Assembly (NCBI GenBank): GCA_001898625.1
Contig: MKUP01000023.1
Coordinates: 409,983-473,982, forward strand
DNA: 64,000 nt
Direction: 5' to 3'
Origin: Burkholderiales bacterium 67-32
GTDB taxonomy: Bacteria > Pseudomonadota > Gammaproteobacteria > Burkholderiales > Burkholderiaceae_B
The position numbers were made by a program, and so were the translations under genes. Of this stretch, positions 56,361 to 58,249 are shown piece after piece. Position 1 is the first letter of the stretch. The number at the start of each line of letters is the position of its first letter. The notes under the pieces were generated by a model. It was given only the letters and a program-made list of their open reading frames with translations. It ran no database searches and was not told the origin of the DNA.

Positions 56361-56389
56361 TTGCCGAAGCGGCCGGCCCCTGCTACGAT
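56361..56389 (+). promoter_or_regulatory. Promoter of the DAHP synthase leader transcript
   Basis: TTGCCG (56361-56366) and TACGAT (56384-56389) are spaced exactly 17 bp. A start site about 7 bp past the -10 would fall at or next to the ATG of the leader peptide (56397), so the leader may be translated from a leaderless mRNA. This fits the absence of a Shine-Dalgarno sequence there. An overlapping TATATT at 56389-56394 is an alternative -10. Confidence 0.55.
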
Positions 56390-56396
56390 ATATTTT

Positions 56397-56480
56397 ATGA
56401 ACTACGCTTCCACGTATTTTTACTTTTACTTTTTTGGATTTCCAAAGCCGCTGGCGGAGGAAAGGAAGCGTCGTATCTAA
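56397..56480 (+). CDS. Tyr/Phe-rich attenuator leader peptide
   Basis: A 27-residue leader (MNYASTYFYFYFFGFPKPL, then EERKRRI after one Ala). Codons 7-15 contain three Tyr and five Phe in nine positions. This composition, followed by a terminator and the DAHP synthase gene, is the classic form of a phenylalanine/tyrosine attenuator (compare pheL). When charged tRNA-Tyr or tRNA-Phe is scarce the ribosome would stall within 56415-56441 and prevent termination. Confidence 0.88.
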   Translation: MNYASTYFYFYFFGFPKPLAEERKRRI

Positions 56481-56527
56481 CGGATTCCTGCCCCAAAAAA
56501 GCCGCCAGCGTCCTGGCGGCTTTTTTT
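56404..56527 (+). promoter_or_regulatory. Transcription attenuator with three alternative hairpins
   Basis: Three pairings can be read directly. The pause hairpin pairs ACGCTTCC (56404-56411) with GGAAGCGT (56464-56471). The antiterminator pairs GCTGGCGG (56450-56457) with CCGCCAGC (56502-56509). The terminator pairs GCCGCCAG (56501-56508) with CTGGCGGC (56513-56520). Each is a perfect 8-bp stem. The antiterminator uses the 5' arm of the terminator, so they exclude each other. A ribosome stalled on the Tyr/Phe codons covers the first segment and favours the antiterminator. Confidence 0.85.
56495..56527 (+). terminator. Intrinsic terminator of the attenuator
   Basis: AAAAAA (56495-56500), an 8-bp stem GCCGCCAG / CTGGCGGC with loop CGTC (56501-56520), then seven T (56521-56527). 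The A-run before the stem can extend pairing with the T-run. It lies 14 bp after the leader stop codon and 74 bp before the DAHP synthase start. Confidence 0.92.
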
Positions 56528-56601: not shown

Positions 56602-57675
56602 GTGTCCCACAACACCGACGACTTGCGCATTCGAGAAATCAAGGAGCTGGCTCCGCCTTCGCACCTGATGCGCGAGTTTCCCTGCACCACCAACGTCTCG
56701 GAGACGGTCTACTCCACCCGGCAGGCGCTACACCGCATCCTGCACGGCATGGACGACCGCCTCGTGGTGGTGATCGGGCCGTGTTCCATCCACGACACCA
56801 AGGCCGCCCTGGAATACGCCTCCCGGCTGAAGGCCGAGCGCGACCGCTTCGCCGGCGAACTCGAGATCGTGATGCGGGTGTACTTCGAGAAGCCCCGCAC
56901 CACGGTGGGCTGGAAGGGCCTGATCAACGATCCCGACCTGGACGGCAGCTTCAACATCAACAAGGGCCTGCGCACCGCCCGCCAGCTGTTGCTGGAGATC
57001 AACGCCCTCGGCTTGCCTGCGGGGTGTGAATATCTGGACATGATCACGCCCCAGTACATCGCCGACCTCGTCTCCTGGGGCGCCATCGGCGCGCGCACCA
57101 CGGAAAGCCAGGTCCACCGCGAACTCGCGTCCGGCCTGTCGTGTCCCGTGGGCTTCAAGAACGGTACCGACGGCAACATCCGCATCGCGGTCGACGCGAT
57201 CAAGGCGGCGTCCCAACCCCATCATTTCCTGTCGGTGACCAAGGGCGGCGTGTCGGCCATCGTGTCCACCAACGGCAACGAGGACTGCCACGTCATCCTG
57301 CGCGGCGGCAAGGCGCCCAACTATGACGCGGCCAGCGTGGAAGCCGCCGCCCAGGACATGGCCAAGGCGGGCCTGGCCCAGCGCGTGATGATCGACGCCA
57401 GCCACGCCAACAGTAGCAAGAAGCCCGAGAACCAACCCCAGGTGCTGGACGACGTGGCGCGCCAGATGGAAGCGGGCGACAACCGCATCGTCGGCGTGAT
57501 GGTGGAAAGCCACCTCGTGGCCGGCCGCCAGGACCTGGTCCCCGGCAAGCCGCTGGTCTACGGCCAGAGCATCACCGACGGCTGCATCGACTGGGATGCC
57601 TCGGTGCAGGTGCTCGAGCGTCTGGCGCAGGCGGTGCAGGCGCGCCGGCTGGTGGCGACCAGCAGCGGCAAGTAG
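56602..57675 (+). CDS. aroG: 3-deoxy-7-phosphoheptulonate (DAHP) synthase, class I
   Basis: A 357-residue AroF/G/H-type enzyme that condenses PEP and erythrose 4-phosphate, the first step of aromatic amino acid synthesis. Motifs include VVIGPCSIHD, the metal and substrate blocks FEKPRTTVGWKGL and GARTTESQVHRELASGL, and MIDASHANSSKK. The start is GTG at 56602 after AGGAGA; the upstream frame crosses the terminator. The Tyr/Phe attenuator suggests expression control by both amino acids. Which of the three classical isozymes it equals in feedback specificity cannot be told. Confidence 0.95.
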   Translation: MSHNTDDLRIREIKELAPPSHLMREFPCTTNVSETVYSTRQALHRILHGMDDRLVVVIGPCSIHDTKAALEYASRLKAERDRFAGELEIVMRVYFEKPRTTVGWKGLINDPDLDGSFNINKGLRTARQLLLEINALGLPAGCEYLDMITPQYIADLVSWGAIGARTTESQVHRELASGLSCPVGFKNGTDGNIRIAVDAIKAASQPHHFLSVTKGGVSAIVSTNGNEDCHVILRGGKAPNYDAASVEAAAQDMAKAGLAQRVMIDASHANSSKKPENQPQVLDDVARQMEAGDNRIVGVMVESHLVAGRQDLVPGKPLVYGQSITDGCIDWDASVQVLERLAQAVQARRLVATSSGK

Positions 57676-57691: not shown

Positions 57692-58249
57692 CTAGCCGCC
57701 CCGGGTGCGGCCCGAGCGCCACAGGACTTCCGGCGTGCCGGCGTCCTGGTTGATGGCGCGGGCCAGCACGAACAGCAGGTCCGACAGGCGGTTCAGGTAT
57801 TGCCGCACCGGCGCGTGGACGGTCTCGACGCGCGCCAGCGCCACCACGCCGCGCTCGGCCCGGCGGCACACGGTGCGGGCCATGTGGGCCAGGGCCGCCG
57901 GCCGGCTTCCGCCGGGCAGCACGAATTCGCGCAGCGGCGGCAGCCGGGCGTTGTAGTCGGCCAGCAGGCCGTCCAGGTGCGCCACGCGCGCCTCCGCCAG
58001 CAGGGCCTGCCCGGGCATGCTGAGTTCTCCCCCCAGGTCGAACAGGTCGTGCTGGATGTCCAGCAGGTCGTGCGCGATGTCCTGCGGCAAGGCTTCCGTC
58101 GCCAGCAGGCCCATCGCGCTGTTCAGTTCGTCCACATCGCCGATGGCCGCGATGCGCGGTGAGTCCTTGGCCACCCGCGGCCCCGTCGCCAGGCCGGTGG
58201 TGCCGTCGTCGCCGGTGCGCGTGGCGATCACGCTCAATCGATGTCCCAT
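57692..58249 (-). CDS. Cob(I)alamin adenosyltransferase, PduO type
   Basis: A 185-residue ATP:corrinoid adenosyltransferase making adenosylcobalamin. The ATP site is [11 protein letters not shown] near residues 10-20. The helical core has [23 protein letters not shown] and the C-terminal [11 protein letters not shown] and [14 protein letters not shown] blocks. It is convergent with aroG (16-bp gap) and ends an operon with the AraC gene upstream. Confidence 0.94.

Follow-up and report, generated by a model that had tools for sequence, protein, structure and literature searches.

Upstream of aroG, the 64-kb window of DNA from Burkholderiales bacterium 67-32 that was analysed here (by "the window" is meant that whole stretch) contains what is very probably, to judge from its sequence, a ribosome-mediated transcription attenuator: a short leader open reading frame rich in codons for products of the pathway, followed by an intrinsic terminator, both of them lying ahead of the first structural gene. 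The device as a whole is of a Phe/Tyr(/Trp) type, of which the Tyr/Phe leader in the window represents the form found in one lineage, and the element spans Burkholderiales, Xanthomonadales and several alphaproteobacterial families.

The features of the locus are collected in Table 1. Several had been claimed in a preliminary description of the same DNA, and those concerning the leader (27 codons, with eight Tyr or Phe in nine positions) and the alternative 8-bp antiterminator, which uses the terminator's 5' arm, are confirmed as they stood. So is the DAHP synthase downstream, the protein encoded 3' of the leader being AroG by NCBIfam NF006723 (585.7 bits, cut-off 568). For the terminator, the 8-bp stem and T-run described are indeed present, but the stem is really 11 bp long, having three extra A-U pairs; its arms, AAAGCCGCCAG and CTGGCGGCTTT, enclose a 4-nt loop, CGTC. 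Antiterminator and terminator are predicted from their pairing to be mutually exclusive in the window, as they share the strand 56502-56509.

Table 1 Features of the aroG leader region (window positions).
Feature	Position	Strand	Remarks
Candidate -35, TTGCCG	56361-56366	+	17 nt upstream of -10; consensus match only, 4/6
Extended -10-like, TGC-TACGAT	56381-56389	+	7 nt upstream of leader ATG
Leader open reading frame	56397-56480	+	ATG 56397, stop 56478-56480, 27 codons; peptide MNYASTYFYFYFFGFPKPLAEERKRRI; read from sequence
P1, 5' arm	56404-56411	+	ACGCTTCC; predicted to pair with 56464-56471, 8 bp
Control codons 7-15, Y F Y F Y F F G F	56415-56441	+	read directly; relatives compared
Region 2, antiterminator 5' strand	56450-56457	+	GCTGGCGG; predicted to pair with region 3, 8 bp
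P1, 3' arm	56464-56471	+	GGAAGCGT; predicted to pair with 56404-56411, 8 bp
Intrinsic terminator hairpin and seven Ts	56498-56527	+	hairpin 56498-56523, T-run 56521-56527
Region 3	56502-56509	+	CCGCCAGC; common to antiterminator and terminator
aroG, DAHP synthase	56602-57675	+	357 aa; GTG start, AGGAGAGG upstream of start

When both strands of the window were searched for ATG-initiated open reading frames no longer than 60 aa in which seven or more of nine codons are Tyr or Phe, the aroG leader was the single one found, and it has its terminator, while 30 dinucleotide shuffles of the window gave no open reading frame of comparable Tyr/Phe density; the presence of a Tyr/Phe leader before aroG is therefore not chance. 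Behind aroG lies a convergent gene (57692-58249, minus strand) for a cob(I)yrinic acid a,c-diamide adenosyltransferase of the PduO type (TIGR00636).

The mechanism proposed is that transcription would begin at or adjoining the leader ATG and that, if Tyr- or Phe-tRNA were short, the ribosome would stall within codons 7-15, opening P1 and freeing region 2. The freed region 2 would pair with newly made region 3, so that the terminator would be blocked and aroG transcribed. With charged tRNA in ample supply the ribosome would instead pass over region 2 and the terminator would form, as it would also if there were no translation, when P1 would hold region 2 in its loop. In relatives whose leaders include Trp codons, the same device would respond to all three aromatic amino acids.

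Pairing in the leader RNA

Evidence that the P1 arms belong together comes from pairing them with arms taken from other loci. Across 96 distinct loci, own arms gave -13.08 kcal/mol as against -10.81 +/- 0.25 kcal/mol for permuted arms, with none of 10,000 permutations reaching so low a value; own pairing beat the median cross pairing in 81 of the 96, and was better than 90% of cross arms in 18 of them only. When the comparison was confined to 13 divergent representatives, 2 of 20,000 permutations were as low, and own arms were the better in 10 of the 13. In the family alignment (31 rows), between 12 and 30 of the 30 or 31 rows form a given P1 pair, and one pair is T-A in 10 rows and G-C in 10. 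The upstream stem is thus kept by compensatory change. It had been described beforehand as an 8-bp pause hairpin, and although a stem of that length does exist, to regard it as a pause hairpin only is the poorer reading: P1 encloses the antiterminator strand, and is probably an anti-antiterminator.

For the pairing of regions 2 and 3 (2:3), the same swapping gave -17.97 for own and -17.22 for cross pairing, with own pairing above the median in 53 of 96 loci, a comparison of low power since the arms are nearly invariant. More can be learned from the position of region 2 relative to the leader. The distance from the ATG to GGCGG varies, yet it keeps the reading frame in 101 of 109 loci, the motif in the other eight being in another frame (examples of an out-of-frame region 2 are L070, L077 and L084, and also L086). 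Because the motif persists where the frame, and hence the peptide, is different, we take region 2 to be selected as RNA and not as peptide.

This point also counts against the idea that the leader encodes a nascent arrest peptide which, in the manner of TnaC, binds free aromatic amino acids, and is not a sensor of tRNA charging at all. Many leaders do have a PLAEE-like stretch after the aromatic codons, which is what such a peptide might require, but in the eight of 109 loci just mentioned, plus L086, that stretch is out of frame, while in other clades it is replaced by sequences of the SSPKAVE and SSLAAGG types, and in both situations the RNA is kept. Runs of many product codons are, besides, the mark of tRNA-charging sensors, and on balance an arrest peptide seems very improbable.

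Folding of the leader RNAs was modelled statically for 108 loci, with the ribosome represented as a mask on the RNA and 2:3 scored as formed at 5 or more expected pairs. With the ribosome at the first aromatic codon 2:3 formed in 97 of the 108, with it at a middle one in 102, and at the last in 49; the on-state of the proposed attenuator is accordingly one that the folding model supports. In the free full-length RNA the terminator formed in 104 of 108 loci, P1 in 70 and 2:3 in 3. The masks for a ribosome near the stop codon or on region 2 block 2:3 largely by construction. A ribosome placed at the stop codon left 2:3 formed in 66 of 108 loci, and the nascent RNA without a ribosome likewise gave 66 of 108, with P1 in 21; the off-state must therefore rest on timing. 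RNAalifold, applied to a mixed alignment, returned the terminator and a hairpin of 2 pairs, and this small hairpin was left out of the covariance model, R1, that was used for searching.

Distribution of the element and codons of its leaders

The training set of R1 consisted of 65 rows, of which genomes of the window's family supplied 30 and named loci 35, so that R1 matches to those rows are by construction; the window's own genome is included in each of the genome counts for family, order, phylum and class. Within the family, 107 of 121 genomes were matched at E<=0.01 (103 at E<=1e-7), representing 40 of 43 genera; of the 14 family genomes that had no R1 match, five are smaller than 1 Mb, but others are of 1.6-3.3 Mb. 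Further afield there were matches in 42 of 180 genomes of the order (E<=1e-5), in 27 of 219 in the phylum sample, and, in a sample of the class counted without regard to aroG carriage, in 5 of 203. At two weak matches (L233, L236) the leaders ahead of aroG are eroded. In the window, R1 also matches the terminator hairpin (56498-56523) on the reverse strand, and termination there may be bidirectional.

Closer to home, the element was matched before aroG in all 11 genomes of the window's genus, region 2 and the terminator being found in every one; leader length changes by entire codons, with 27, 26 and 25 among the near relatives. The comparison with relatives that the preliminary description had suggested thus came out in its favour, with leader codons, region 2 and terminator all kept in 11 of 11. 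Its attenuation reading is likewise supported; what proved too narrow was the notion of a betaproteobacterial Tyr/Phe device, given that Xanthomonadales and alphaproteobacteria carry the wider one.

Individual loci were also inspected. An order-level check covered 32 loci (27 new order matches and 5 earlier ones, with 8 of the 42 order matches left out), and a script found leader, terminator and DAHP synthase at 28 of them; at L207 and L222 there is a leader but no terminator was accepted, L210 has neither, and L198 is without DAHP synthase. Among the 28 loci from the class and phylum samples, 21 had all three by script, to which L174 was added by eye, and the DAHP synthase motif was absent at six. 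These six stand, as identified by eye, before pheS (L194, L196), pheA (L199) and other genes; that R1 weakly matches leaders ahead of pheS and pheA suggests a look shared by Phe attenuators.

A set of named AroG loci, the best 80 of at least 590 matches, has leader and terminator together at 59. The carriers on the Burkholderiales side are Bordetella, Burkholderia, Paraburkholderia, Caballeronia, Trinickia, Cupriavidus and Oxalobacteraceae, and others are Xanthomonas, Stenotrophomonas, Dyella, Rhodanobacter, Bradyrhizobium, Mesorhizobium and Devosia; there are MAGs among the carriers too. The pair is missing at the remaining 21 of these best 80, which include Rhodocyclaceae, Zoogloeaceae and enterobacteria (among the genera are Thauera, Azoarcus, Rhodocyclus, Dechloromonas, Pantoea, Erwinia and Enterovibrio). 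A contig end truncates one of the 21 loci, and at L082 and L121 a leader-like reading frame stands without a scored terminator. A search of plasmids with the leader gave no match.

Some loci have features of their own. One genome with a normal copy (L228) also has a second, orphan leader and terminator (L229, G014:C1:1193000-1195200, leader at about 522), followed, as judged by eye, by aroG-like first codons that run into an mnmA-like reading frame. Two AroG matches occur in many family genomes; in one of the genomes with two (G083) R1 matches one leader in the forward direction, its remaining match being the same hairpin read on the reverse strand, and the second aroG copy seems to be without a leader. 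Near aroG of [Pseudomonas] boreopolis (L107:3448-3641, minus strand) are two adjacent glycine riboswitch aptamers, one above the gathering score and one just under it.

The codons of the leaders differ between lineages chiefly in respect of Trp. Phe, Tyr and Trp occur together in the nine-codon core of 4 of 57 distinct leaders in the family (a set that includes L052 and L067), 14 of 30 in other Burkholderiales, 9 of 9 in Xanthomonadales and 15 of 16 in alphaproteobacteria; counted anywhere in the peptide, with the same denominators, the figures are 5, 17, 9 and 16. Control runs containing all three could possibly act as a sensor of all three end products, and since some lineages have Trp codons and others do not, the weight that a multi-input attenuator gives to each input can be tested directly. 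The aromatic share of the core over 104 leaders is 73%, a figure inflated by the choice of the densest nine codons. In those cores TTT outnumbers TTC by 360 to 55, as against 8 to 41 in six genes at or near the leader, an excess that could reflect slower decoding or low structure.

One might then ask whether a T-rich stretch does no more than keep the RNA unstructured, in company with a constitutive terminator that stops a transcript arriving from upstream or reduces the expression of aroG. The hairpin is certainly strong, and with its R1 match on the reverse strand too could terminate both ways; nor is the absence of stop codons from the control run an argument to the contrary, because the leaders were found as open reading frames. 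Such an arrangement would, however, leave the persistence of P1 and region 2 without a reason, and a control run that includes TGG, a codon that is not T-rich, is seen in all nine Xanthomonadales leaders and in 15 of the 16 from alphaproteobacteria. We regard it as less probable even than an arrest peptide.

Transcription start and history of the element

A -10-like hexamer, defined as one starting with TA and matching TATAAT at 4 or more of its 6 positions, lies 5-9 nt upstream of the leader ATG in 59 of 60 loci in the family, 8 of 9 in Xanthomonadales and 10 of 16 in alphaproteobacteria, as against 3 of 32 in other Burkholderiales, where a distance of 25-39 nt is usual (counts 8, 3, 16). Under the stricter pattern TAnnnT a cluster of hexamers was seen in the family alone, with no recurrent one in alphaproteobacteria or Xanthomonadales. 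Shine-Dalgarno pairing of -6 kcal/mol or lower was found before the leader ATG at 1 of 59 loci and before aroG at 45 of the same 59 (named set, best 80 of at least 590), and before the leader ATG in the family set at 0 of 57. The window itself has TACGAT 7 nt before the ATG and no Shine-Dalgarno. Because the hexamer stands so near to the ATG and a Shine-Dalgarno is lacking, the leader mRNA is probably leaderless in the family, in Xanthomonadales and in many alphaproteobacteria, which raises the question of how ribosomes are loaded on such leaders.

It could be instead that attenuation is real but that transcription starts further upstream, the hexamer near the ATG being incidental. The hexamers at 25-39 nt in other Burkholderiales imply that the device can accommodate a 5' UTR, and the outcome with TAnnnT in alphaproteobacteria and Xanthomonadales is in keeping with this; but the preponderance of the 5-9 nt spacing in three groups and the rarity of Shine-Dalgarno pairing before the leader, compared with its frequency before aroG, make an upstream start unlikely.

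As to how the element came to be so widely spread, a tree of 81 AroG sequences, in which the window's nearest row is a Bordetella (85% identity, which makes a place in Alcaligenaceae likely), places the Xanthomonadales and alphaproteobacterial rows (one MAG, L127, excepted) in one group of 24 rows with support of 100/98. This group joins the window, Bordetella and one MAG in a group of 27 rows at 92/94, just under the tool's star. The leader label requires 7 changes on the tree, whereas shuffled labels need 19 on average, and a short distance from -10 to ATG is common to most of the 27 rows. The coincidence of AroG grouping, leader label and short spacing suggests that promoter, leader and aroG travelled together. 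That all this goes back to a single mobile promoter-leader-aroG cassette, leaderless and metering Phe-, Tyr- and Trp-tRNAs, which passed from an Alcaligenaceae-like source to Xanthomonadales, Rhizobiales, Devosia and other alphaproteobacteria, the Trp input being absent or dropped in the window's lineage, is a proposal for which we would put the chances at about even.

Comparison with known systems

The 6.66-Mb source genome, in contig 23 of which the window is situated, has one aroG-type DAHP synthase (TIGR00034) and no match to the type II enzyme (TIGR01358), these two models being what the search covered, and would on the reading preferred here control entry to the whole aromatic pathway by one RNA switch that reads several charged tRNAs. 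In E. coli, according to PMC5343134, DAHP synthase is, in the textbook account, controlled by TyrR/TrpR and by way of three feedback-inhibited isoenzymes.

No Rfam 15 family was found at gathering score in the window, and the element would supply annotators with an RNA family that Rfam 15 leaves unflagged there. Phe_leader (RF01859) resembles it in having a Phe-rich leader reading frame and a terminator, and 2 of the 12 loci scanned (L152 and L091) align with the Rfam model over its full length. Their scores, 32.5 and 30.5 bits, lie below the gathering score of 55, and the window's own locus (L172) was unlisted up to E 1; moreover the target gene differs, and aroG leaders have Tyr/Trp codons.

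Closer in target are two predicted attenuators outside Proteobacteria. That of aroF in Corynebacterium glutamicum, as described in PMC4046766, has a Phe-Tyr-Phe leader peptide before a DAHP synthase gene, though it belongs to another phylum and is likened here by description alone. The uORFC-13-1 motif of Acholeplasma aroF is a predicted Phe uORF with a terminator before a DAHP synthase gene, but it has an RBS, is represented by 24 sequences, drawn from a single genus and from environmental DNA, and goes without mention of Tyr/Trp codons in the available text of PMC8632094. The same text cites an earlier hypothesis of attenuation at E. coli aroF, which would likewise place such control on DAHP synthase in a proteobacterium. 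Within the best 80 of at least 590 matches, four AroG genes are from enterobacteria or vibrios, and no leader with terminator was found upstream of them. For the leaderless start there is a parallel in trpL of Sinorhizobium meliloti, an attenuator leader RNA that starts at the ATG of its leader reading frame, the difference being that it is a Trp leader, of trpE(G) (PMC7298713). Merino's attenuator database was, in PMC1173090, screened for tyrA only. The open-licence literature, in the parts accessible, yielded no report of this leaderless, multi-aromatic element before aroG across Proteobacteria, and an earlier prediction is possible.

Attenuators before DAHP synthase genes are, then, a known kind. 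The sensing of several end products at once is also familiar from the ilvGMEDA and thr leaders, which differ from the aroG leaders in that their codons are branched-chain or Thr/Ile ones.
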